Shown in pieces: positions 12,600 to 51,508 of a stretch of 64,000 nt of DNA (position 1 is the first letter of the stretch; every line of letters begins with the position of its first letter). Below the pieces are notes generated by a model. That model saw only the letters and a program-made list of their open reading frames with translations, was not told where the DNA came from and did no database searches. The position numbers and the translations under genes were made by a program. The DNA comes from Liolophura sinensis (lineage: Eukaryota > Mollusca > Polyplacophora > Chitonida > Chitonidae), in NCBI RefSeq assembly GCF_032854445.1, contig NC_088296.1:4179246-4243245 (forward strand), given 5' to 3'.

Positions 12600-14250
12600 T
12601 GCCTAGGCCTCTGTCTACTGTATTTAACCATGTGAAGCAATTGTGTCAAGCAGATTTGAGGCCTCTATCTACCACTGGTAATGATGAGGCCTCTGTCTAC
12701 TGTAGATAACCATGAGGCCTCTGTCTATTGTAGGTAACCGTGAGGGCTCTGTCTACTGCAGGTAACCGTGAGGCCTCTGTCTACTGTAGGTAACCATGTG
12801 AAGCAGTTGTGTCAAGCAGATTTGAGGCCTCTATCTACCACTGGTAATGATGAGGCCTCTGTCTACTGTAGATAACCATGAGGCCTCTGTCTATTGTAGG
12901 TAACCGTGAGGGCTCTGTCTACTGCAGGTAGCCGTGAGGCCTCTGTCTACTGTAGGTAACCATGTGAAGCAGTTGTGTCAAGCAGATTTGAGGCCTCTAT
13001 CTACCGTAGGTAATGAGGAGGCCTCTGTCTACTGTAGATAACCATGAGGCCTCTGTCTATTGTAGGTAACCGTGAGGGCTCTGTCTACTGCAGGTAGCCG
13101 TGAGGCCTCTGTCTACTGTAGGTAACCATGTGAAGCAGTTGTGTCAAGCAGATTTGAGGCCTCTATCTACCACTGGTAATGATGAGGCCTCTGTCTACTG
13201 TAGATAACCATGAGGCCTCTGTCTATTGTAGGTAACCGTGAGGGCTCTGTCTACTGCAGGTAACCGTGAGGCCTCTGTCTACTGTAGGTAACCATGTGAA
13301 GCAGTTGTGTCAAGCAGATTTGAGGCCTCTATCTACCACTGGTAATGATGAGGCCTCTGTCTACTGTAGATAACCATGAGGCCTCTGTCTATTGTAGGTA
13401 ACCGTGAGGGCTCTGTCTACTGCAGGTAACTGTGAGGCCTCTGGTTACTGTAGGTAACCATGTGAAGCAGTTGTGTCAAGCAGATTTGAGGCCTCTATCT
13501 ACCGTAGGTAATGAGGAGGCCTCTGTCTACTGTAGATAACCATGAGGCCTCTGTCTATTGTAGGTAACCGTGAGGGCTCTGTCTACTGCAGGTAGCCGTG
13601 AGGCCTCTGTCTACTGTAGGTAACCATGTGAAGCAGTTGTGTCAAGCAGATTTGAGGCCTCTATCTACCATAGGTAATGATGAGGCCTCTGTCTACTGTA
13701 GATAACCATGAGGCCTCTGTGTATTGTAGGTAACTATGTGAGGCTTTTGTGTCAAGCGGATGTGAGGCCTCTGTCTACTGTAGGTAAACATGAGGCCTCT
13801 GTCTACTGTAGGTAACCATGTGAGGCTTTTGTGTCAAGCGGATGTGAGGCCTCTGTCTGCTGTAGGTAACCATGAGGCCTCTGTCTACTGTAGGTAACCA
13901 TGTGAAGCAATTGTGTCAAGCAGATTTGAGGCCTCTGTCTACTGTAGGTAACCATGTGAAGCAGTTGTGTCAAGCAGATTTGAGGCCTCTATCTACCATA
14001 GGTAATGATGAGGCCTCTGTCTACTGTAGATAACCATGAGGCCTCTGTGTATTGTAGGTAACTATGTGAGGCTTTTGTGTCAAGCGGATGTGAGGCCTCT
14101 GTCTACTGTAGGTAACCATGAGGCCTCTGTCTACTGTAGGTAACCATGTGAAGCAATTGTCAAGCAGATTTGAGGCCTCTGTGTACTGTAGGTAATCAAG
14201 AGGCCTCTGTCTACTGTAGGTGACCATGTGAAGCAGTTGTGTCGAGCAGA
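12600..14250 (+). repeat. 166-bp higher-order tandem repeat in the 3'UTR intron of CDC42SE
   Basis: The marker ccatgtgaagc recurs at 12628, 12794, 12960, 13126, 13292, 13458 and 13624, exactly 166 bp apart each time. Each unit holds about six shorter sub-repeats of the type tgaggcctctgtctactgta. Beyond about 13,700 the order breaks down into mixed sub-repeats. It fills most of the intron between the stop-codon exon and the exon starting at 14301. Open frames within it are by-products. Confidence 0.92.
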
Positions 14251-14300
14251 TCAGTTCATCTGTGTCTGTCATTTACCTTGGACTTAACTGTCTCTTCCAG

Positions 14301-24186: not shown

Positions 24187-27100
24187 TCAGTTGAGGTGGA
24201 AAGATCTGGATAGGATTCCAAACGTCCTCCGATCTGAAAAAAGCCAAAAGAAATTATAATGTACAGATTACACAGCAGCAATTTTTATTGCAGGCGGAGA
24301 AAAGAGCACCCTCCCCCCTCTTACTTATAATTGCCCTTATGCTGACGCTTTTACCAAGTTATGCTCACCTGGAACCGATCGCTTTGGCTTGATGACTTCA
24401 ACTTCCACCGCACAAGAATCCTTGAAGGATTGGGAAAAGTGCAGTTACTAAAACGGTCCTTGTGAAAATGTAAAATTTGTGCAGCAGCAGATATCTGCTC
24501 TATTAGAATTTCAAATTTGAAGCAAATCAAAAACCTTTGGAGACAATCATTTAAAAATGTAGTCTATAAACCATATCAGCATTTATAAGCGAGTAAAAGA
24601 AAAGTGGTCTAAAGAATGTAAATACAGATTAGGTCCACGATAACGAAAACAAATGTTTTTATTACAAAATTCAAGGTTTTATTCCTAGGTAAACCTACCC
24701 CATCACAGTTCTCGTTACAGGCCGTATAGGTGCATTCGAACCTAACGGTATTATCTCCCCCTGATAATTTGAAGGCCTCGAACCACGGGCTGTACACGCA
24801 GTTCCCCCGGGTTTCAAATCCAGACGTTTTGGGAAAGATCAAGCCGTCTCCACATCTTTTTTAAAAGAAAAGTTAAAAAATTCAGTAAAATATTAAGTGT
24901 TCAGCATGTAGGTTACTGGCTAGGCTGAAGAATCAGATTGAAATGAAATCCGTCTAGGAGGCCCACTAGCCCTTAACAGAAAAGAAAGTAAACATACCAA
25001 ACTCCAGCAAGTTGCTTTTTGCTTACTTTTTTAATATTAAAAACAAAATTAAAATTAACACTTTGTAGCGCCCTCGGTACAGCGTTGGGGAAAAAAAAAA
25101 TCTTACCCGGCACGCAGGATGTAATAGCGACTGACCGAGTTGACAGCGGCGCAGCTCAGAGCCCGGAAGGAGTTCAATTGTCCTGCGCAATGAAGAGGGT
25201 ATATGTACATATGTATATATGTATATAGCAATATGGAATCTCCGCTTAGAAGCACAGGTGTAATACCGAAAATAGAAAATTTAAGTTTTGCGCACCTGTT
25301 GTATCCCACGCCACCAGCTGGACCTTCCTGCCAATAGCAATCTGCTCTGACGTCACTTCCTGTCCGAGCACATCCATGACCTTCAGGGTGAAAGTAGCGG
25401 TGGAATTGGCGCCAAGAAGCGTTTGCTTCTCCCACGGGTTCAGGAACCTACAAATTTATGTAAGGGAGGTAAGAAATCAATTTTTAAGCGACGAGAGTGG
25501 GTGGGTACTTGGGGGTTTTAACGTCGTACTTAACATTCCTTTAGTTATACGACTAAAGAGTTCGAGTGTAGGTACTGTGCTTCCTTGTTGCAGGACAGCT
25601 TTCCACCGCTCCTTCATTTAGTACCGTTTCACGGAGACTACTTACCGAGGCAAGTAAGGCGCCCAGCCTTAGCCATTATAGGGATACGGGTCAACCAGTC
25701 GTTGCACTTTCTCTTTAATGCTGAACGTCAAACGGCATAGTTCTAATTTCACGATTGACCCCGAGTACACTCCCGAGGCGAACGCTCTACCAAGTGAGCT
25801 ATCGGGGAGGGTAAGACTCGACGAGAAATTAAAAAATGATTTTACTTATTTATATTCAATCATTGCAAGGACCGACTGGAATAACACCGATTGACGCGCA
25901 ACTTCAGGTCAGTACGATTGGAATTCAGTCGTCGATATTGTCACTTTCAATCCCAAAATGAATAACTGGTTATGGAAACCGGCTTTGGTGAAATCATTTA
26001 ATTGGTTGTTTTCGACCTACATGTATATGCGACGGCTGCCAGCATTATTGCTTGAAAGTTGAAGAGAGCGGTTGTAAACCACAGTTTTCTTGCAGACCTT
26101 CCCACGTACAATCCAAAAGGAAGCCGGCACGAGCTTGGAAAGGTCATCGCATTGGCGAGAAGCTTTAGTTATTCAGAGACCTTTAGTGAAGAGTTAAGTT
26201 AAATCTCTGGTGTGCTGCTATAAACACGTTAGCTAGTTCGGTCACGTAGGTATCTTGCTCACTGGTCTGGACACCACCGTTTCCATAGCTACAACAAACT
26301 GCAGAACAGCTGTATGCTTACCAATCAGCAATGGTTTCTGTTTTTGAGACCGCTTTGCCATGGGCGTCGTAAGCACAGGATATGGTGTGGATTTTTCGTT
26401 GCTGAATAATTTGTGTGTCCCGGTCTCCCCAGCCAACTTCAACGTCCACTGTGTACGTCCGGATACCGGCCTTTTTCTGTGGGCAGAAAAGGCCTAAAAT
26501 ACATTCGTAATCTGTTATGCAAAATTTTAGGGCTTACAAATAAAAAACAAGGATACAATTTTTAAAACTGTTTGATAACGTTAAAAAGCTGGAAAGACAA
26601 AATAAAAAAGACGTGTAAAAGCAAGACGATAATAGGATATAATGCCAGCTTATTCGCTCCAAGAGAAAAAAAAAATTCCTTGCTTCTCACAAGGCATTGT
26701 TGGTAAAAAGGCAAAGTTTATGTCGTCGATGTGTTAGGGAGGAAGCAGATATTAGTAGAGATTTTAAATTTCACTGTTACCTGACGCACAATTTCCCGCA
26801 AACCCCACGGGTTACAAAGAAATGCCGCCCCTACATCCGGGTCCCCCCCCCCCCCCCACCACACGCCCAATAAATCCCAGTAAAGCCCAGGAGGGGTTAG
26901 GCTATTAGCACTTCAGAAATACTAACGTAGAACTGGCAGCGCTCGCCCACAGAAGACTGATCGAAGGAGCTGTCTAGTTTGAAGTTGACTACATCCACAG
27001 CAATCAGCGGCTTGTCACCGTTTCGACACCTGGCCAGAGCGTATGACGGGACGTCAGCGGTCAGGCGGAGAGTCGGCTCATCAGCGTCACTAAGCGGACA

Positions 27101-27809
27101 TTTGGAGAACACTGGGAGAAAAAAAAATACACAAGTTAAGTGTATCAGCGGAAAAGCAGATTGAAAACAATTCAGCGCAAAACTATCTTTCACATTTCAC
27201 ATTTAGGGTTTCTTATCTTCCAAAGCCACGCATTATATCGGACCCATGTTGAAACAGGAGACAGATTTGTAAGTACTATTGAAGTTGCTCAGTGGCGGTT
27301 ATAAACACTCACGGTGGACAATAGGGTCGTCTCCCAGAACAAAGGTCACCTACAACAACAGAACACAAACAAAACGAGTTAGCTTGGACACGGCGATCAA
27401 GAGTAAAAATAATTACCTTCATCTAGAAAGCCATTACAGCGAGCCACAGTGCTGGTAAATAACGCTTTGACACCTTTTAATACCATAACACTGTTTTCAA
27501 AATCACACTCCCCTCCAAAAGGCTGCAAATGTAGTGTGGAGGAAACCAGAATGCCCAGGGCGAAGCAGAGATCTTGGGCAAGTTACCGACTAACTCCTTC
27601 CACAGGTTTCAAACGCATACACTACATGTATATGGTCTTCTAGAAACGTTACATTTCGCGTAGGGTTAAGCGAGCTTTGTGGAACGTTTTGGTCACCAAA
27701 AGATCCCTCTAAGAGAAGTGAAAAAGGTAAAGGGAAAAATTCTAAATAGAAAAGTGCTTGTAAGCAGTTGTATACTTACGGAAGCAAGGATTAAACCCAA
27801 CGTGAACAT
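24187..27809 (-). CDS. Secreted ZP-domain protein, nine exons, complete
   Basis: Coding exons (- strand, 5' to 3'): 27809-27780, 27349-27313, 27111-26927, 26476-26322, 25447-25296, 25182-25107, 24855-24699, 24420-24369, 24233-24187. All have GT..AG borders and compatible phases, giving 296 residues and TGA. Residues 1-16 are a hydrophobic signal peptide. The ZP-N half (about 27-120) has the expected four cysteines (27, 51, 81, 118) and ends in the typical IHTISCAY. The ZP-C half (about 136-274) has the hallmark FEAFKLSGGDNTVRFECTY and a Cys-rich end. KPKR at 275-278 is a furin-like site. After it come only 18 residues and no membrane segment. ZP modules polymerise into extracellular filaments (egg coats, mucus, cuticle, shell matrix), and cleavage at the furin site normally releases the assembly block. 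The specific role is unknown. The absent anchor is unusual for the family. Introns hold one SINE B and one SINE A. Confidence 0.9.
25492..25812 (-). mobile_element. SINE family B, full length, in a ZP-gene intron
   Basis: On the + strand it begins with cttgggggttttaacgtcgt. It passes through ccttgttgcaggacagcttt and gggtcaaccagtcgttgcac, and ends in the complement of a tRNA-like head (acgctctaccaagtgagcta). It lies in intron 4 of the ZP gene in the same orientation as the gene. Confidence 0.9.
26029..26165 (-). mobile_element. SINE family A fragment in a ZP-gene intron
   Basis: It is degenerate: cgacggctgccagcattatt, cagaccttcccacgtacaat and cattggcgagaagctt are recognisable. Confidence 0.7.
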
Positions 27810-28714: not shown

Positions 28715-29352
28715 CCAGAGATGGTTCAGGCATCGCTATCTGGGATGGTTCAGGAATCGCTATCTGAGATTGTTCAGGCATCGCTATCTGGGATTGTTCA
28801 GGCATCGCTATCTGAGATTGTTCGGACATCGCTATCTGGGATGGTTCAGGCATCGCTATCTGAGATTGTTCAGGCATCGCTATCTGGGATGGTTCAGGCA
28901 TCGCTGTGTGAGATGGTTCAGGCGTCGCTGTCTGGGATTGTTCAGGCATCGCTATCTGGGATTGTTCAGGCATCGCTATCTGAGATGGTTCAGGCATCGC
29001 TATCTGAGATGGTTCAGGCATCGCTGTTTGAGATGGTTCAGGCATCGCTGTCTGGGATTGTTCAGGCATCGCTATCTGGGATTGTTCAGGCATCACTATC
29101 TGAGATGGTTCAGGCATCGCTATCTGAGATGGTTCAGGCATCGCTATCTGAGATGGTTCAGACATCACTATCTGAGATGGTTCGGGCATGGGTATCTGAG
29201 ATGGTTCAGGCATCGCTGTCTGAGATGGTTCAGGCATCGCTGTCTGAGATGGTTCAGACATCACTATCTGAGATGGTTCAGACATCGCTATCTGAGATGG
29301 TTCGGGCATGGGTATCTGAGATGGTTCAGGCATCGCTATCTCAGATGGTTTA
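28715..29352. repeat. 24-bp minisatellite, about 26 copies
   Basis: The unit is gatggttcaggcatcgctat followed by ctga. Because 24 is divisible by three, several frames on both strands stay open (repeating MVQASLSE on +, MPEPSQIA on -). Nothing outside the array continues any of these frames as a protein, so I do not call a gene. Confidence 0.92.
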
Positions 29353-29859: not shown

Positions 29860-30968
29860 AAACAAGTGATTGGAAGTCAGACTGAGTACCGTCATATACG
29901 TTTGGACAACATATAAACGATAACTTAAATTTAAAATCGTCAACGTCCTCGTCGTCTGCGATCGCCCCTGGCCAGAGATTTTTCAAGCTAGAATCTAACT
30001 TTAGCTGGTTTATCTGAATTAAATTGCACGCCATTGCAGACTGATAATGGCCTCGGACCCCCTTTAATTTTCCATAAGCCACAATGTTAACGTCTAGCGC
30101 TGTAGCTCAGTCCCAAACATTCCGTGGCCAATGGTGCATACCTGGCCCTGCCTGGGAGAAACAAGCCATAAAAATCTTGACATAGGTTGACCGTCAAAAT
30201 CTGGACCTTTACATGCCGCGGCTGGGAGGCGTGCCTAGCAACGCCAAGGGGACGTCACTCGCAGCCTCATCACTACCTCACACCTTGTGTCCTACCACAC
30301 AGAATTTCAAACTTTCATCAATAAAGCTCATACCTCCTCAAAGTTTAGACAGTTTCCAGAATTTTAATACCAAGCATGCACCTGTGCACCAAAAATGGAC
30401 GCCTGGGAGCAAAAAAAGACTTTATACCCTAAAATTCACAGAACTACAATCGTCCCTACCGAAAAACGGAAGTTGTAATGGGAGTCTGTGTCCTAATGCA
30501 ACTGTCATGACATCGAGCGGTCGAATCCAACTTTCGCTGCATCGGTTGCGGCTTTAGTCAGAAAATTTATCGGGTAACTGGAGAAGGGGGCGGTTTCCTA
30601 ATTCGAGCAATCCGCTTTCCTTCATCTTTTACTTGTCCGCGATCTTATAAGTGAGAAATTCGTAATAAATGGCGTAAATCTCCTCCAGGGTAACACAATC
30701 ATACCCAGGAAGAATATAAGTGACGATATATCCAAACAGACATTGAAATCTCTATTCACAATCTATGAATTTTCACTCCAGAATATTTTGGTAAGGACAG
30801 AATTAAATGTGTCCCCCCCCCAAAAAAAAACCAAAAAAAAAAATAAAAAAAACCCAGCAAATAAACAAAAAAGCAAAATTGGTGTAGAACTTTATTATTC
30901 CTGTATTAATGATAAATGAGAGCAAGTTGGTCCCCATCTTCCGGATTGGGTTTGGCCAGGCTTCCGTT
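29860..30968. other. No gene seen
   Basis: This is a relatively GC-richer, apparently single-copy stretch at 30,090-30,600, followed by A-rich runs at 30,820-30,860. A 114-codon open frame at 30,213-30,557 has no family resemblance. It lies downstream of the cysteine-rich peptide gene and may include part of that gene's 3'UTR (30,968 and below). Confidence 0.4.
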
Positions 30969-33900
30969 TTAAACTCCACAGCTAAACTTCGCCAGCTTGT
31001 TTCCATCCATATAGAAGTCATAGTTACAGCCGCCGCAGTAGTTTGCCCTATTAGCACAACAGATGATAGGATAAATAACAAATAAGCCAATGAATTCAAG
31101 TTGAAGAAGTTATAAGTTGTTAAATCCAGCTTAGAGAAGGCTGGCTAAGGCGCTAAGACAAACAAACCATTACACAAACACGTGGATAGACATCCTATCA
31201 AATATCAGAGCGCATAAACTTACCGTCTTGCAGAAAATCCAACTGACAGAGTGAGGAAAATAAAGGTATATAAAGAAACAGCTCGACTGAGCGACGAACC
31301 CACACACGAGAATGGACAGACAGGCAGGCACGCAGGCATACGGACCCAGAAACAAGCAGAAACAAGTCCCTTAAGTATACGCATAATCACACACACACGC
31401 AAACTGGTGAACACAAAGTGCGTTAAGTACACACATAATCATACACAGATACACACACAGACAAACCGGCGAACACAAAGTCTATTAAGTACGCACATAT
31501 TCATACACATATATACACACAGACATCCAGCGAACACAAAATACATTAAGTACACACATAATCATGCACAGATACACACACAGACATCCGGCGAACACAA
31601 AGTCCATTAAGTACACACATAATCATACACAGATACACACACAGACAATCAGCGAACACAAAGTCCATTAAGTACACACATAATCATGCACAGATACACA
31701 CACACAGACAAACCGGCGAACACAAAGTCTATTAAGAACACACATAATCATACACAGATATACACACAGACAAACCGGCGAACACAAAGTCTATTAATTA
31801 CACACATAATCATACACAGATACACACACAGACATTCAGCGAACACAAAGTCCATTAAGTACACACAAAATCATGCACAGATACACACACAGACATCCGG
31901 CGAACACAAAGTCCATTAAGTACACACATAATCATACACAGATACACACACAGACATTCAGCGAACACAAAGTCCATTAAGTACACACATAATCATACAC
32001 AGATATACACACAGACAAACCGGCGAACACAAAGTCTATTAATTACACACATAATCATACACAGATACACACACAGACATTCAGCGAACACAAAGTCCAT
32101 TTAGTACACACATAATCATGCACAGATACACACACAGACATCCGGCGAACACAAAGTCCATAAAGTACACACATAATCATACACAGATACACACACAGAC
32201 ATTCAGCGAACACAAAGTCCATTAAGTACACACATAATCATGCACAGATACACACACAGACATCCGGCGAACACAAGGTCCATTAAGTACACACATATTC
32301 ATACACAGATACACACACAGACATTCAGCGAACACAAAGTCCATTAAGTACACACATAATCATGCACAGATACACACACAGACATCCGGCGAACACAAAG
32401 TCTATTAAGTACACACATAATCATGCACAGATATACACACAGACATCCAGCGAACACAAAGTACATTAAGTACACACATAATCATGCACAGATACACACA
32501 CACAGACAAACCGGAGAACACAAAGTCCATTAAGTATACACAGACACGGGCAGGTGAACATGCTCACAGTGAGGAACAAACTTATACAGACAGGTAGACA
32601 AATAGACAGACCGACAGGCAGATGAACAGATCGTCACACTGACAAAAGGATACACACACAGATAAATACACAAACAGAGGGAAATATATACATACAGCTA
32701 GTCAGCCAGCCAGCCAGACAGACAGACAGACAGACAGACACACCGATGGAAAGATAAAGAGACAAAAACACACGGAAAGAAAGACAGACATAAAGACAGA
32801 CAAACAGACAACAAATAGACAGGCAAACATATATACAAAGACAAAATGCATAGACCAATAGACAGAGACAAAAACACACACGGTCATAAAGATAGACAGA
32901 CAGACAACACACAGAAAATAGACAAACGATTATATAGCGTACATTTATATACACAGACTATGACATAGACAAACACACTGACAAGCAGATTAAGAGGCAA
33001 AAAATACGCGGACAGAAAAACACACCGACGGACAGACAGAAAGACAGACAGACAAACACACAGACAAACAGACACCACATAGGCAGACAGACAGACAGTG
33101 ACAGACAGACGGGTACTTTACAGGGAGATAAACAGACGGACGAACAGCTAGACGATAGACGGACATACACAGACAAACAGACAGACATACAGACAGACAA
33201 AAGGACAACACACATTAAGACAAACAGGCAAACGTGTACCTGCACTGGGCGTCAGGGTGACCCGGACATTTGGCCATCATACAGGGATCAATGAAACAGT
33301 AGACGAATGAGGTGCCAGGCGGACAGCTCGGGGCCGCTTAAAAAACAAAAGTTCAAATAAGTAACTTCACAGTATAAGCTGTTAGTTATACTGTGCTACA
33401 ATACAGTAATTTTACAGTTTAATTGTTAGGATATACTGCCCTACAATAAACAACGCCGTTGTATTAATTTTGGGGTATACTATCCTCACAATAAGAAATT
33501 CTACGGCAATAATTAGTGGTTATGGTATCCCCACAATCAGTGAGTGAGTGAGAGCTTGGGGTCGTACTTCGTAGTTAACAATTCTTCAGTCATATGGTGA
33601 CAAAGGAATCCTTAGAGCGCATGTAACGTGCCTTGTTGGAGGGCTGATTTCTACCTCTCTTTTATCTAGTGCTACTTCACTGTGACGCCTTATCGAAGGC
33701 AAGTAAGGCGCCCCGCCCGAACCTTTATACTGATTATGGTCAACTAGTCATTGCACTATATCCTTCATGCTGAACCCCAAGCGAGTTACAACTTCCTCTT
33801 TTAAGGTCTTAGGTGTGACTCGACCCGGGATTGACCCTGAATCTACCGGGCCCGAAGAGGACGCGCTACCAAGTGTGCGATCGGGGCCGGTCCTCACATT

Positions 33901-36900
33901 AAGAAATACCACGGCAATTATTATTGGTTATACTAACCCCACAATAAGAAATGCTACGGCAATAACTATTGGTTATACTAACCCCACAATGAGAAATGCT
34001 TCGGCAATAACTATTGGTTATACTAACCCCACAATAAGAAATGCTACGGCAATGACTATTGGTTATACTAACCCCACAATAAGAAATGCTACGGCAATAA
34101 CTATTGCTTATACTAACCCCACAATGAGAAATGCTACATCAATTGTTACTGGTTATACTAACCCCACAATAAGAAATACCACGGCAATAGTTATTGGTTA
34201 TACTAGCCCCACAATAAGAAATGCTACGGCAATAACTATTAGTTATACCCACCACACAATAAGAAATGCTTCATCAATAGTTACTGGTTATACCAACCCC
34301 ACAATAAGAAATGCTACGGCAATAACTATTGGTTATACTAACCCCACAATAAGAAATGCTACGGCAATAACTATTAGTTATACTCACCCCACAATAAGAA
34401 ATGCTACGGCAACAAATCCTGGGTTACACTGTCCCACATTAAGTAACCCAACCCTACAAATTTTTGTGTTACCACATTAAGTAATGATACTGCGCTTCAT
34501 ATGTTGAACTGGACCCACATTAAGTAATGGTACTGCACTTCATGTGTTGCACTGGCCTCACAACTGTACTCACAATATGTAACGCTACACTTTCATTTGT
34601 TTTCTTATTTTGCCCCGCATTAATGCGCACTACTGCGTTGTATGCAGCACTACACATTGCCCCCACAATAATGAGCACTACTGTGTTGTAAGCAGCATTA
34701 TACATTGCCCCCACAATGGTCAGCGAACTTTATTGCTGCTGTATTCATTGTAGTTATACTCACTCATGACACAGCCAAACACAGACAGAGCTAAGATGAG
34801 AAACACTTTCATGTCTGGTGATGGTCAGCGAGCTTTATGGCTGCTGTGTTCATTGTAGTTATACTCACCCATGACACAGCCAAACACAGACAGAGCTAAG
34901 ATGAAAAACACTTTCATGTCTGGTGATGGTCAGCGAGCGTTATTGCTGTTGTATTCATTGTAGTTATACTCACCCATGACACAGTGAAACACAGACAGAG
35001 CTAAGATGAGAAACACCTTCATGTCTGGTGATGGTCAGCGAGCGTTATGACTGCTGTATTCATTGTAGTTATACTCACCCATGACACAGCCAAACACAGA
35101 CAGAGCTAAGATGAGAAACAACTTCATGTCTGGTGATGGTCCGGGAGCGATATGGCTGCTGTATTCATTGTAGTTATAGTCACTCATGACACAGCCAAAC
35201 ACAGACAGAGCTAAGATGAGAAACACCTTCATGTCTGGTGATGGTCAGCGAGCGTTATTGCTGTTGTATTCATTGTAGTTACACTCACCCATGACACAGC
35301 CAAACACAGACAGAGCTAAGATGAGAACACCTTCATGTCTGGTGATGGTCCGGGAGCGATATGGCTGCTGTATTCATTGTAGTTACACTCACCCATGACA
35401 CAGCCAAACACAGACAGAGCTAAGATGAGAAACAACTTCATGTCTGGTGATGGTCCGGGAGCGATATGGCTGCTGTATTCATTGTAGTTATACTCACCCA
35501 TGACACAGCCAAACGCAGACAGAGCTAAGATGAGAAATAACTTCATGTCTGGTGATGGTCCGGGAGCGATATGGCTGCTGTATTCATTGTAGTTATACTC
35601 ACCCATGACACAGCCAAACACAGACAGAGCTAAGATGAGAAACACCTTCATGTCTGGTGATGGTCAGCGAGCGTTATGACTGCTGTATTCATTGTAGTTA
35701 CACTCACCCATGACACAGCCAAACACAGACAGAGCTAAGATGAGAAACACCTTCATGTCTGGTGATGGTCAGCGAGCGTTATGACTGCTGTATTCATTGT
35801 AGTTACACTCACCCATGACACAGCCAAACACAGACAGAGCTAAGATGAGAAACACCTTCATGTCTGGTGATGGTCAGCGAGCGTTATTGCTGTTGTATTC
35901 ATTGTAGTTATACTCACTCTTGACACAGCCAAACACAGACAGAGCTAAGATGAGAAACACCTTCATGTCTGGTGATGATCAGCGAGCGTTATGACTGCTG
36001 TATTTATTGTAGTTATACTCACCCATGACACAGCCAAACACAGACAGGGCTAAGATGAGAAACACCTTCATGTCTGGTGATGGTCAGCGAGCGTTATTGC
36101 TGTTGTATTCATTGTAGTTATACTCACCCATGACATAGCCAAACGCAGACAGAGCTAAGATGAGAAACAGCTTCATGTCTGGTGATGGTCAGCGAGCGTT
36201 ATGACTGCTGTATTCATTGTAGTTACACTCACCCATGACACATCCAAACACAGACAGAGCTAAGATGAGAAACACCTTCATGTCTGGTGATGGTCAGCGA
36301 GCGTTATTGCTGTTGTATTCATTGTAGTTATACTCACCCATGACACAGTGAAACACAGACAGAGCTAAGATGAGAAACACCTTTATGTCTGGTGATGGTC
36401 AGCGAGCGCCATGACTGCTGTATTCATTGTAGTTATACTCACCCATGACACAGCCAAACACAGACAGAGCTAAGATGAGAAACAACTTCATGTCTGGTGA
36501 TGGTCCGGGAGCGATATGGCTGTTGTATTCATTGTAGTTATACTCACCCATGACACAGTGAAACACAGACAGAGCTAAGATGAGAAACACCTTCATGTCT
36601 GGTGATGATCAACGAGCGTTATTGCTGTTGTATTCATTGTAGTTATACTCACTCATGACACAGCCAAACACAGACAGAGCTAAGATGAGAAACACCTTCA
36701 TGTCTGGTGATGGTCCGCGAGCGCCATGGCTGCTGTGTTCATTGTAGTTATACTCACCCATGACACAGTGAAACACAGACAGAGCTAAGATGAGAAACAC
36801 CTTCATGTCTGGTGATGATCAGCGAGCGTTATTGCTGTTGTATTCATTGTAGTTATACTCACTCATGACACAGCCAAACACAGACAGAGCTAAGATGAGA

Positions 36901-37330
36901 AACAACTTCATGTCTGGTGATGGTCCGGGAGCGATATGGCTGCTGTATTCATTGTAGTTATACTCACCCATGACACAGCCAAACATAGACAGAGCTAAGA
37001 TGAGAAACACTTTCATGTCTGGTGATGGTCAGCGAGCGTTATGACTGCTGTATTCATTGTAGATATACTCACTCATAACACAGCTAAACACAGACAGAGC
37101 TAAGATGAGAAACACCTTCATGTCTGGTGATGGTCAGCGAGCGCCATGACTGCTGTATTCATTGTAGTTACACTCACCCATGACACAGCCAAACACAGAC
37201 AGAGGTAAGATGAGAACACCTTCATGTCTGGTGATGGTCCGGGAGCGATATGGCTGCTGTATTCATTGTAGTTATACTCACCCATGACACAGCCAAACAC
37301 AGACAGAGCTAAGATGAGAAACACCTTCAT
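30969..37330 (-). CDS. Secreted cysteine-rich peptide (74 residues), three exons; exon 1 tandemly amplified
   Basis: Exons, using the promoter-proximal exon-1 copy: 37330-37282 (ATG, 16 codons + 1 nt, donor G|GTGAGT), 33336-33240 (acceptor ttttttaag, donor AG|GTACAC), 31047-30969 (acceptor AATAG|G, stop TAA). Phases 1 and 2 join exactly, giving 74 residues. Residues 1 to about 18 are a signal peptide (MKVFLILALSVFGCVM + AA). The mature part has eight cysteines, spaced C-x8-C-x4-C-x4-C-x7-C-x4-C-x2-C-x15-C, with DPC and NYCGGC motifs. From memory, this resembles a small secreted Cys-rich module common in molluscan mucus, shell-associated and other extracellular proteins. I cannot assign a function. 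The alternative start exons between 34,764 and 37,225 could replace the first one and give almost the same signal peptide. Both introns are nearly filled with tandem repeats. The gene model is inference from splice sites, frame and signal-peptide logic. Confidence 0.72.
31380..32550 (+). repeat. 61-bp minisatellite in intron 2 of the Cys-rich peptide gene
   Basis: About 19-20 units of gcgaacacaaagtccattaa plus a CA-rich half (acacacataatcatacacag). For example, gcgaac falls at 31591 and 31652. Two or more alternating variants (attcagcga, atccggcga, aaaccggcga) suggest higher-order spread. Confidence 0.92.
32560..33235 (+). repeat. Degenerate (GACA)n/(CAGA)n tract
   Basis: Long low-complexity sequence of gacagacagacag type. 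It directly precedes the donor of exon 2 of the Cys-rich peptide gene. The Cys/Val/Leu-rich open frames on the - strand are artefacts of the repeat. Confidence 0.9.
33460..34440 (+). repeat. 45-bp minisatellite split by a SINE
   Basis: The unit is acaataagaaatgctacggc plus aataactattggttatacta plus acccc. About 12 units lie at 33,893-34,440. One or two diverged units precede the family-B SINE at 33,540-33,890. All lie within intron 1 of the Cys-rich peptide gene. The + strand open frame (repeat NPTIRNATAITIGYT) follows from the 45-bp period. Confidence 0.9.
33540..33890 (-). mobile_element. SINE family B, full length, inserted in a minisatellite
   Basis: It starts with gagcttggggtcgtacttcg, contains actcgacccgggattgaccc and ends in a tRNA-like head complement (gcgctaccaagtgtgcgatc). 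Minisatellite sequence lies on both sides. Confidence 0.9.
34717..37330 (-). repeat. 25-copy tandem array of a signal-peptide first exon (105-bp unit)
   Basis: Exon starts (first base of the ATG position, - strand) are at 34812, 34917, 35022, 35127, 35232, 35336, 35441, 35546, 35651, 35756, 35861, 35966, 36071, 36176, 36281, 36386, 36491, 36596, 36701, 36806, 36911, 37016, 37121, 37225 and 37330. Each unit carries the 16-codon signal peptide, a donor and about 56 bp of intron-like sequence. Most donors read GTGAGT, but the copy starting at 37121 shows GTGAGTATATC after an altered start of the intron. The copy at 36386 has ATA instead of ATG. The copies at 35336 and 37225 are 104 bp long, with the same one-base loss near codon 5. 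One copy (35966) has ATG to AAG at codon 16. Since 105 is 35 codons, some neighbours read through in frame. Confidence 0.95.
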
Positions 37331-37380
37331 ATCTGGTCCGTGAGAATAATGGAACTGGCCTTTTTAGGTTCGTATACATG

Positions 37381-37388
37381 TATATATA
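37381..37388 (-). promoter_or_regulatory. Candidate TATA box of the Cys-rich peptide gene
   Basis: TATATATA lies 51-58 bp upstream of the outermost exon-1 ATG, in unique sequence just outside the array. That spacing suits a TATA box with a short leader of about 25 nt. No comparable box exists inside the 105-bp units, so this is the only promoter candidate for the array. Confidence 0.4.
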
Positions 37389-37841
37389 CGACAATGTACC
37401 CTGCGAGCTACTGTAAGGATTCTAGTTAATGGTTAGATAATGACTCGATTCCTCTGGTTACCCTACTCTTGGTAGGGTGAGTGTAAGAAGCGCGTTAACA
37501 ATACTTGTGTGGCAGCGTGGGTGATTTTACATGTGTTTTGGACATGTTTTTTTTTATATTTTTAAATATACCATTAATGGTGAGCTGGCTCTGTGGTGGA
37601 CACTTTGTGTGGTAGATACTGGGAAGATCGTTAGCTCCTTACCAAAGACCGCTGGTTTTCTACGAGCACTAAAGAATGTTCTAAGCCAAAAACTGATCAC
37701 CGTATTTTAGGCAAACCACGTTTAACAATAATCAAACAAATAGTACATAAATATGGATAGCTGATAATCAATGGACCTAAACAATCCCAAATCATAGATG
37801 AGATTTTATGGTATGTATGTCAATCTAAGAAGACAAAATCT

Positions 37842-41899: not shown

Positions 41900-42150
41900 C
41901 ATTTATTTTACCTGGAGCCTTAGTGTAAGACCACACAAAATGTTACAGTATCTGTCTATCTTGTCTGTCAGCCGGTGGATCGCTCGATATAGGGGTTTCA
42001 GAACACATCTTCTAACATGAATCATTCATTTAACCTGGGGCCTTACTGTAAAACCGCACGAAATGTTACGGTGTCTGTCTATCTTGTCTGTCAGATGGCT
42101 GATCGCTCGACTTAACCTGGGGCCTTGGTGTAAGACCACACGAATGGTTA
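41900..42150. repeat. Imperfect repeats at the 3' end of the receptor gene
   Basis: Three copies of a segment around acctggggccttagtgtaag and accacacgaaatgttacggt occur near 41,911, 42,034 and 42,115. They end at the receptor stop codon, so they lie in its 3'UTR or just beyond. Confidence 0.75.
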
Positions 42151-44938
42151 CGGTGTCGCATGCAGCTCTTGCGAACTTGTACTTGCTTGTGCTTGAGATG
42201 ACACTTTGCTGGACACGGTGTTAGGCGTTGTCTCTTTTCCAGACCTCTTAGCAGCTTTGCGGCGACATCCGCAGAAGACGTCGGCGAAGGCCTTTCGGAA
42301 AGTACTGGACATAATGAAGATGATGAAGGGGTTGGCCTGGCTGTTCGCGAAGAGGCAAATCCAGGAAATCCAGTACACGATGTAACTTTCGCGCTTCACT
42401 AGAGCCTCTTCGAAGCGGTAGATATCCGGCGAGAGAACGTTGAACAGCTCCAGCATGCAGCGGGGGAATCTGCAAATGACGAAGACGACGACGGCAATGA
42501 GCAGCATGATGACGGTGCGCGTGCGCGGCGACCGGCGCGCGGATTTCGCGTGGTCCGCGCGAGCGACTTCCTCCGTAGGCTTCTTCTTGAGGATCGCACG
42601 GACCATGCGAGCGTAGACGAAGACGAGGATAGGAACGGAGCCGAAGTTGGAGATGACTTCCAAACCTGCCACGTAGCTCTTCATCCATGGCTCGGCGATA
42701 TAGATGTAGCAGAACGTCAACGTCTGGTTTCCCTCGGGGAACGTGTCGTAGCGAGACATGATGTAGGTGGGGAAAGAGAAAGCGACGGTGAGGAGCACGA
42801 TGCTGGTGAGGACGTAGAATGTGCGACGTCCCGACCAGTAGTAAAGCGAGACGAGAGGATGACAGACTGCGATATAACGATCCAGGCTAACAAACAGGAA
42901 GATCAAAGTAGAGCAAAATACACCGCCTTTGTCGTAAAACAGGATGAAATAACCTGAAACATGAAAATATTGTCAAATGTAATGTATGGACAACAACTCA
43001 GCTGTACCAAATTCCTACCAAAAATATAGGACGCTAGACACAATAGCAAATATATAATTTCCAAGACAAAAGCACAAATATATACATGGGTAAAGCTAAA
43101 CACAAAGCTATGTCTAACGAGGCAAAACATATGTAACACCAAGCTAAACACAAGGCTAAGTCTAAGAAGGCAAAACACATGTAACACAAAGCTAAACACA
43201 AAGCGAAGTCTAACAAGTCAAAACATATGTAACACAAAGCTAAACACAAAGCTAAGTCTAACAAGTCAAGACATATGTAACACCAAGCTAAACACAAAGC
43301 TAAGTCTAAGAAGGCAAAACATATGTAACACAAAGCTAAACACAAAGCTATGTCTAACGAGGCAAAACATATGTAACACCAAGCTAAACACAAGGCTAAG
43401 TCTAAGAAGGCAAAACACATGTAACACAAAGCTAAACACAAAGCGAAGTCTAACAAGTCAAAACATATGTAACACAAAGCTAAACACAAAGCTAAGCCTA
43501 ACAAGTCAAGACATATGTAACACCAAGCTAAACACAAAGCTAAGTCTAAGAAGGCAAAACATATGTAACACAAAGCTAAACACAAAGCTAAGTCTAACAA
43601 GTCAAAACATATGTAATACCAAGCTAAACACAAAGCTAAGTCTAAGAAGGCAAAACATATGTAACACAAAGCTAAACACAAAGCTAATTCTAAGGAGGCA
43701 AAACATATGTAACACAAAGCTAAACACAAAGCTAAGTCTAACAAGTCAAAACATATGTAACATAAAGCTAAACACAAAGTTAAGTTTAACAAGCCAAAAC
43801 ATATGTAACAAAGCTAAACACAAAGGTAAGTCTAGCAAGTCAAAATATATGTAACACAAAGCTAAACACAAAGCTAAGCCAAGAAAGGCAGAATATATTC
43901 AACCTAATCTAAATAGAAGGACAAGTTTAGCTAGTCAAAACATATGTAACCTGTACTAAACACAAAGCTAAGTCTAGCAAGGCAAAATATAATCAACCTA
44001 AACTAAAGCCTATCGAGACAAAACATGTTCAGCCTATTCCATATAAAAGTTCATGAAATAAGCCCATGGATAGGTACTCTGGTATCGGTGTTTAAGTCAC
44101 GATAGAACGAGATTACTGTAATGAAATGTTGTCAAACATATACTCTGTACGAAATTTTAAAAGGGGTAAATATTTCCTAACTTATTATCGCGTGTTACGT
44201 CGTCATCCGGCTGACCTATATAAACGGTCTTGAAGGACGTGTCATTAAGTTCATCGCTTTAATCAGTTGATAACCTGATGATGATCCTTATAAGTGAAGG
44301 AGTCCGAAAACAATGTGCACATCAGGGAGAGGTCAAACTCACGACTTTATTGGTCAGGAGCTTCAGAATCTAGCCACTGAGAGATCCTACACTCTTGACT
44401 ACTTAATAAGATGCAGTGTTTATTTCATGTGGAGACCTGCCAATTCCAAATTTTATTTCTTTTTTTTTTATTGAATTAAATCTTTTCAATGATGGTATAC
44501 TATCCTCAAAATTGCGCGCATCATCATATAGATGCGGAAAATTCAAAGTAGTCTTGACGAATTTAGTGTCATTTTAACAAGACTTCGCAAACACCACACT
44601 ATGAGGTCAAGTTTAGTAAGTAAGTGAGAATTGTTGCGTGTCCTTGCTTTTATAAACAACGTCTTACAGAGGTGTTCTCCTAGGTTGGAATCGTCCACTC
44701 CAAACTCCCAGTTCATCGTCACGACTGGCTGATAGACGAGGAACAACACATCCGCCAGACTTAGGAAGGCCAAGCTTTTATTCACCGTAGTCCGGAGCGA
44801 TTTCACCTTGGCAACAAGGAATATGATCAAGAGGTTACCAAGGATTCCAACTGCGGTCATAACGCCGCAGACGGACACCAAGGCAATGCGTGTTCCCATG
44901 GAAGCCTCCCAAATGTCGAACTCATAGTAGCTGTCCAT
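42148..44938 (-). CDS. Class A (rhodopsin-like) G-protein-coupled receptor, peptide-receptor type
   Basis: Two coding exons, 44938-44668 and 42953-42148, join in phase 1 (CTC T|GTAAGA ... TTTCAG|GT). The join regenerates the conserved TM3 cysteine (C91) and gives 358 residues. Visible landmarks: GN at 34-35 in TM1, LSLAD in TM2, W77, C91 paired with ECL2 C172, DRY 115-117 followed by IAVCHPL, Pro in TM5, CRFP 251-254 in TM6, NP at 298-299 in TM7, and an FCGC palmitoylation-type tail. The usual CWxP is CRFP. NPxxY is NPFII. TM4 lacks the usual Trp. ECL2 has an N-glycosylation site (NQT, about 166). The overall look suggests a neuropeptide-type receptor (FMRFamide, allatostatin or galanin-like); the ligand is unknown. 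The start-codon exon opens at an acceptor at 44954, so upstream non-coding exons exist. Confidence 0.9.
43085..44030 (-). repeat. 48-bp minisatellite in the receptor intron
   Basis: The unit is acatatgtaacacaaagcta plus aacacaaagctaagtctaac plus aaggcaaa, with acatatg/acacatg at 43127 and 43175. About 16 regular units are followed by decayed ones. Read on the gene's own strand it is open for about 250 codons with a hydrophobic Leu/Cys/Tyr repeat, which I regard as a by-product. Confidence 0.92.
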
Positions 44939-45104
44939 TATTACGTGAGGGAATCTGTTTAAAAAAAAACCATAGTCAATGTTTCATTTAAACGACGGCA
45001 ATCTGCTTTATTTGCGAAGGAAAGCTGACGGCAGGATTAAATCGTAGCCTTTCACCAGGCACCAGAAACACATTTCGTGCTGCACAGAATTCGTGCTGCA
45101 ATTC

Positions 45105-50954: not shown

Positions 50955-51508
50955 TCCAAATCCGGCCATCGTAAAGTTCCTGACAGAGACACAGACTTAT
51001 CCGGCCATCGTAAAGTTCCTGACAAAGACACAGACTTATCCGGCCATCGTAAAGTTCCTGACAGAGACACAGTCTTATCCGGCCATCGTAAAGTTCCTGA
51101 CAGAGACACAGACTTATCCGGCCATCGTAAAGTTCCTGACAGAGACACAGTCTTACCTGGCCATCGTAAAGTTCCTGACAGAGACACAGACTTATCCGGC
51201 CAACGTAAAGTTCCTGACAGAGACACGGACTTATCCGGCCATCGTAAAGTTCCTGACAGAGACACAGACTTATCCGGCCATCGTAAAGTTCCTGACAGAG
51301 ACACAGACTTATCCGGCCATCGTAAAGTTCCTGACAGAGACACGGACTTATCCGACCATCGTAAAGTTCCTGACAGAGACACAGACTTATCCGGCCATCG
51401 TAAAGTTCCTGACAGAGACACAGACTTATCCGGCCATCGTAAAGTTCCTGACAGAGACACAGACTTATCCGGCCATCGTAAAATTCCTGACAGAGACACG
51501 GACTTATA
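50955..51508. repeat. 39-bp minisatellite, 14 copies
   Basis: The unit is cttatccggccatcgtaaag plus ttcctgacagagacacaga, highly uniform. The 39-bp period keeps at least four frames open on both strands, for example repeating DKSVSLSGTLRWP on the - strand. No flanking sequence supports a protein. Confidence 0.95.

Follow-up and report, generated by a model that had tools for sequence, protein, structure and literature searches.

In the clusters of variable first exons exemplified by UGT1, GCNT2, and protocadherin, several start exons lie above a set of shared downstream exons on one strand, and, in the case of UGT1, a specific promoter is described before each first exon (PMC3325998). A tandem array of 25 units in the chiton Liolophura sinensis, found in a window of 64,000 nucleotides (by which we mean the whole stretch of DNA that was analysed), has this same layout: in 21 of its 25 copies, a start exon ends in a donor that is in phase with the shared exons, as in UGT1 and protocadherin. 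Unlike those of UGT1, however, the units are only 105 bp apart, are near-identical, and have a single visible TATA box between them. As far as the TATA box can show, they do not each have a promoter of their own (the motif TATAWAW precedes one copy in 25), so the array has not been filed as a first-exon cluster.

Intragenic minisatellites (VNTRs) offer a closer comparison. Like them, the array is made of units of tens of bases with shuffled variants, arranged head to tail at high identity, and it lies in a repeat-rich intron. The difference is in the content of the unit, which holds a whole translation-start exon and its donor rather than a piece of an intron or of a coding repeat. The array is filed here as a minisatellite that would have amplified a complete translation-start exon, which would be new among minisatellites; among the matches listed, at the level of titles and the beginnings of abstracts, no case of an amplified start exon was found in one library of open-access papers.

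The pilin and VSG systems keep silent cassette archives, which are converted into an expressed copy. The array recalls these archives in having one probable expressed unit, many homologous silent ones, and signs of exchange between them, but the part exchanged would be a signal peptide, and there is no sign of selected diversity. The micro-exon genes of schistosomes resemble the present gene in encoding secreted proteins by means of short exons (PMC10526429), and the title of Davis et al. (1988), as it appears in the reference list of that paper, refers to tandemly repeated exons encoding 81-base repeats. Going by this title, the repeated exons of schistosomes encode repeats within transcripts, whereas the exon repeated here is a start exon for a signal peptide, and its internal use is putative.

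The array and the gene model

Tandem Repeats Finder (TRF) placed the array at 34716-37337, with a period of 105, 25.0 copies, 92% matches, and a score of 4481. Dividing the minus strand at each start-codon position also gave 25 units, with a spacing of 105 in 22 of 24 cases and of 104 in the other two. The start exon of the consensus unit consists of 16 codons, the first of them ATG, and one extra base (49 nt in all); GTGAGT comes next, and a further 50 nt separate it from the following start codon, which makes G/GTGAGT a phase-1 donor. The ATG is kept in 24 of the 25 copies (it is lost in copy 10), GTGAGT is kept in 24 (copy 21 has GTGACT), and the frame is kept in 23 (copies 2 and 20 have each lost one T in a 1-nt deletion); 21 copies combine an intact start codon, frame, and donor, and four are disabled. 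Altogether, 35 allele types are present at 32 variable columns. The count of 25 tandem copies, their period, and their common strand, as given by the initial annotation, are confirmed by TRF and by the minus-strand split, and so is the presence of a start codon, 16 signal-peptide codons, and a donor in nearly every copy. The same annotation allowed for up to about 22 interchangeable start exons, which comes close to the 21 intact copies, but the use of several of them is unsupported (see below).

A search for GGGTGAGTATAACTAC with up to three mismatches gave 33 matches in the window, where 0.41 would be expected; 25 of them lie in the array and 8 in the adjacent 45-bp array, so the array is no chance occurrence. 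A more general pattern, that of an ATG followed by 10-30 open codons, one base, and GTRAGT, gave 30 matches on both strands, 21 of them within the array. The 45 nt upstream of copy 1 have no significant homology to the unit (115 of 1000 shuffles were as good), so the array seems to begin at the GACCAG beside copy 1; by eye, GACCA is present at both ends of the array. The folding of the 105-bp unit as RNA is unremarkable (z -0.61).

The array probably belongs to a minus-strand gene of three exons that would encode a small, secreted, Cys-rich protein (Table 1). When copy 1 (ATG at 37330) is joined to 33336-33240 and 31047-30969, the resulting 225 nt form one frame of 74 amino acids followed by a stop, and the phases agree at the junctions. 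The predicted protein consists of MKVFLILALSVFGCVM followed by AAPSCPPGTSFVYCFIDPCMMAKCPGHPDAQCRANYCGGCNYDFYMDGNKLAKFSCGV, with eight cysteines after the signal peptide. It had been proposed that the donor joins the Cys-rich exon at 33,336 in the right phase, and this holds, since the donor is of phase 1 and exon 2 completes the codon; the start exon for a signal peptide, which is in phase with this Cys-rich exon 2, also appears genuine. Exon 3, which the initial annotation does not name, would complete the gene model together with its stop and the poly(A) signal, and all three strengthen that model; in a longer view, the acceptor of exon 3 reads TTGTGCTAATAG/G.

Table 1. The array, the predicted gene, and the repeats in its introns (a slash marks an exon boundary).
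Feature	Position	Strand	Remarks
TATA box TATATATA	37381..37388	-	probable core promoter; lies 58 nt before the outermost ATG
Copy 1, coding part of exon 1, MKVFLILALSVFGCVM	37282..37330	-	16 codons and the first base of codon 17; probable working start exon
105-bp unit array, 25 copies	34716..37337	-	unit made of the start exon (49 nt), the first 48 nt or so of the intron, and 8 nt before the next ATG
48-bp repeats, intron 1	34613..34717	.	apparently diverged relatives of the 45-bp family; kinship by eye
45-bp minisatellite, intron 1	33895..34412	.	diverged relatives extend as far as 33356, close to the acceptor of exon 2
Exon 2, 97 nt, AAPSCPPGTSFVYCFIDPCMMAKCPGHPDAQC	33240..33336	-	acceptor TTTTGTTTTTTAAG/C; donor CAG/GTACAC
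61-bp minisatellite, intron 2	31409..32542	.	TRF
Coding part of exon 3, 79 nt including the stop, ANYCGGCNYDFYMDGNKLAKFSCGV	30969..31047	-	acceptor TGTGCTAATAG/G
AATAAA poly(A) signal	30891..30896	-	downstream of exon 3

Using tblastn with each exon in turn (E < 0.2), no other exon 2 or exon 3 was found in the window, nor was an exon 1 found outside the array. The protein has no match to a Pfam or NCBIfam family above the curated cut-offs, and no relatives were confirmed in IMG/VR. A search of PDB sequences returned four weak matches, the best of them with an E of 0.0066 (heteroyohimbine synthase, over 31 residues), which were taken as chance. The arrangement DPC...CP...C...YCGGC presumably recalls secreted and shell proteins of molluscs; motif searches of open-access papers with the Cys pattern gave no relevant match. 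A scan of 37300-37700 for bacterial-type promoters yielded nothing, a method that has no bearing on an animal gene.

One start exon or several

The explanation that we consider probable is that a minisatellite took up exon 1 and grew passively within a repeat-rich intron, copy 1 alone being in use. The unit would correspond to the segment running from just before the start codon to around 48 nt into intron 1, probably bounded by GACCA, and slippage or unequal exchange would have brought it to 25 copies. The transcription start would lie some 30 nt downstream of the TATA box (37388), and copy 1 would act as the working exon 1, with its cap-near donor spliced to 33336; copies 2-25 would be transcribed and then removed with intron 1. 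The likeness of the copies would stem from their youth and from exchange between them, and not from selection on their reading frames.

TATAWAW was found at most 65 nt upstream of the ATG in the outermost copy only (37388), with a probability by chance of about 0.04 per given 40 nt; by itself the TATA box counts as modest evidence, and any start within the array that lacks such a box would be invisible to sequence. A transcript started from this TATA box yields, through donor 1, the 74-amino-acid protein from its first ATG. Through any of donors 2-25 (24 out of 24), the first ATG opens a reading of 70 amino acids that does not include the mature peptide.

Columns vary about as often in the exon (16 of 49) as in the rest of the unit (16 of 56; Fisher p 0.68). 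Codon positions 1, 2, and 3 vary in 5, 4, and 6 of the 16 codons, and variation does not clearly avoid the columns of the ATG and of GTGAGT (2 of these 9 vary, versus 30 of 96 elsewhere; p 0.72). The array also tolerates four disabled copies, two with a frameshift, one without a start codon, and one without a donor. Two observations point away from the passive explanation. Pairs of copies differ less on average in the exon (0.053) than in the rest of the unit (0.079), a contrast equalled, however, by 47 of the 105 circular shifts of the columns; and the loss of the start codon and the loss of the donor are each confined to one copy and hence have not spread. Among the variants in the 16 codons, 5 are synonymous and 12 nonsynonymous, in agreement with the synonymous fraction of 0.23-0.28 expected under neutrality (a 13th nonsynonymous variant, at the junction base, was left out, giving n = 17 changes). 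A dN/dS of 0.2 or below is disfavoured (P 0.005), one of 0.3 is marginal (P 0.04), and one of 0.5 is compatible with the counts (P 0.25); the test is a weak one, based on 17 changes in a signal peptide, a type of sequence that accepts many substitutions.

The initial annotation had put forward two possibilities. That several copies are used finds no support in these results, given the single TATAWAW, the lack of clear constraint, and the failure of all donors but the first to give the protein from the first ATG. The other, that the outermost copy alone is used and that 24 decoy donors are skipped, fits better, insofar as usage can be read from sequence.

Several other explanations may nonetheless be weighed. 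Transcription might begin in several units, each spliced directly to exon 2, as in the variable first-exon clusters. The 21 intact copies are in keeping with such alternative start exons, as is a weak TATA-like motif, TATAACT, located in the consensus unit around 50 nt before the next ATG (compared with 58 nt for the real TATA box). However, TATAACT is a poor match to TATAWAW and is altered in 7 of the 25 copies (A to G at position 56 in six of them and a change at position 59 in one), a true TATAWAW is restricted to one copy, and no clear sign of constraint accompanies the supposed use. Moreover, the mature peptides would differ at most by the A/T variant at the junction, and this only if cleavage occurs at or before that residue; since nearly the same mature peptide would be made, any effect would fall on dose or regulation. 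On balance, alternative start exons are unlikely. A wider proposal, which treats the array as a bank of working start exons, with each unit a minimal cassette of weak TATA-like box, start codon, signal peptide, and donor that either starts transcription or overwrites the expressed copy by gene conversion, seems to us quite unlikely; if it were true, the length of the array would set the dose or the secretion of one fixed mature peptide and would vary quickly between individuals.

The internal copies might also act as cassette exons of 51 nt (CACCAG/AC ATG ... G/GTGAGT), which would put repeated MKVFLILALSVFGCVMD blocks into the signal peptide; because these cassettes are phase-symmetric, any number of them could be added. 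Each of the 24 internal copies does have CACCAG before its start position, 22 of the 24 internal cassettes have an open frame and a length divisible by three, and an example containing copies 11 and 15 reads into the mature peptide. Yet, by eye, the putative acceptor before ACATGAAG lacks a pyrimidine tract, the introns between adjacent copies would be only 54 nt long, CACCAG can be explained as the junction between one copy and the next, and, from general knowledge, repeated hydrophobic blocks make a poor signal peptide, all of which leaves the cassettes very unlikely. A comparably low probability is attached to a passive effect of the donors, whereby the 24 extra sites would bind U1 and alter splicing efficiency, intron retention, or early polyadenylation, such that array length would tune expression. 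The retention of GTGAGT in 24 of the 25 donors and the fit of the copy 1 site to 7 of 9 positions of the U1-complementary consensus (with G allowed at +3) speak for this effect, but the columns of the start codon and donor are not clearly more conserved than the others. Finally, an assembly error could have produced a false copy number by false expansion, or false single copies by homopolymer deletions. Copies 2 and 20 do share a 1-nt deletion in a run of T, which is a common error of long reads; the 25 copies nevertheless carry many distinct variants (the 35 allele types at 32 columns), as in a true array, and an error of assembly is hardly credible.

Among the candidates rejected is the reading of each unit as a short secreted peptide gene of its own (GEYNYNEYSSHNAR and a stop past the donor in the consensus): of the 17 variants in the tail, two (at positions 78 and 90, counted by eye) are synonymous, and a T to G change at position 91 removes the stop in eight copies, copy 1 among them. 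An array of spliced-leader RNA genes was also rejected, there being no Rfam 15 match in the window at gathering thresholds.

Should the internal copies be used after all, they would represent a new way of multiplying the start sites of one peptide. If instead they are unused, they warn that dozens of start exons may be falsely predicted in the repeat-rich genomes of molluscs. With 24 copies of an exon lying in its own intron, the array would offer a natural test of how the first donor is chosen by the spliceosome when many equal ones follow, and it would show how minisatellites can convert exons to intron.

Exchange between copies, and the surrounding sequence

When informative columns were taken in pairs, 63 of the 136 pairs contained all four combinations of alleles. 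No difference separates copy 1 from copy 17 over the 97 nt compared, nor copy 15 from copy 16, where an average pair differs by about 7%. The four-combination pairs, together with the identity of copies 1 and 17, call for either exchange between copies or recurrent mutation, and exchange would be the simpler reading. Copies two apart are slightly more alike than expected, with 47 of 2000 permutations as low (four lags were tried). Exchange between copies would leave the expressed exon open to conversion by its silent neighbours. If copy 1 alone is in use, as we consider probable, a side effect of the array would be a set of 24 such neighbours able to overwrite the expressed exon, copy 1 being already identical to copy 17; the protein could in this way acquire signal-peptide changes that occur among the copies (V to L, V to M, G to H, and, at the junction, A to T).

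The introns themselves are rich in repeats. Tandem repeats cover 16139 of the 64000 bases of the window (TRF intervals, merged by hand), 3372 of the 3945 bases of intron 1 (37281-33337; 85%, array included), and 1480 of the 2192 bases of intron 2 (33239-31048). In intron 1, the diverged copies of the 45-bp family extend from 33356 to about 34588 and are followed by the 48-bp units. A 15-nt stretch around the donor of the 105-bp unit, GGGTGAGTATAACTA, recurs exactly in one 45-bp copy (34375-34389, minus strand; BLAST E 0.017), which may reflect a shared origin of the two units or chance. For a minisatellite to take in a 49-nt exon amid such repeats would, in our judgement, be unusual but not extraordinary. 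The 45-bp array of intron 1 is interrupted by a dispersed repeat (33541-33895), to which six further stretches in the window correspond at 71-86% identity; by eye, the minus strand of this repeat shows A and B boxes like those of tRNA genes, and ARAGORN reported no tRNA in it.

Other repeats and genes were observed elsewhere in the window. On the plus strand, 12605-14251 is occupied by an array with units of 28/166 bp in which CTGTAG/GTAACC, acceptor-like and then donor-like, has the appearance of a recursive splice site (by eye); of the 29 occurrences of TAGGTAA on the plus strand of the window, 26 are in this array. A 24-bp array (28718-29350) and a 39-bp array (50960-51507) are open in several frames over some 195-272 codons and are candidate coding sequences only. 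Around 4 kb downstream of the array gene is a VERL/VEZP-like gene (24612-27196), in which two minus-strand frames, 24612-24860 and 26321-26533, match Pfam VERL_C, the C-terminal domain of the vitelline envelope sperm lysin receptor, above the cut-off (E 9e-20 and 9e-09); a third match on the same strand, at 26900-27196, is weak (E 0.009) and below the family cut-off. VERL is described as an egg-coat protein of abalone (PMC3567151). On the minus strand, 42148-44983 contains frames of a rhodopsin-type GPCR (7tm_1, E 8e-22, and a second match with E 3e-05, below the cut-off), and a 48-bp minisatellite (43092-43991) lies between the two GPCR frames.
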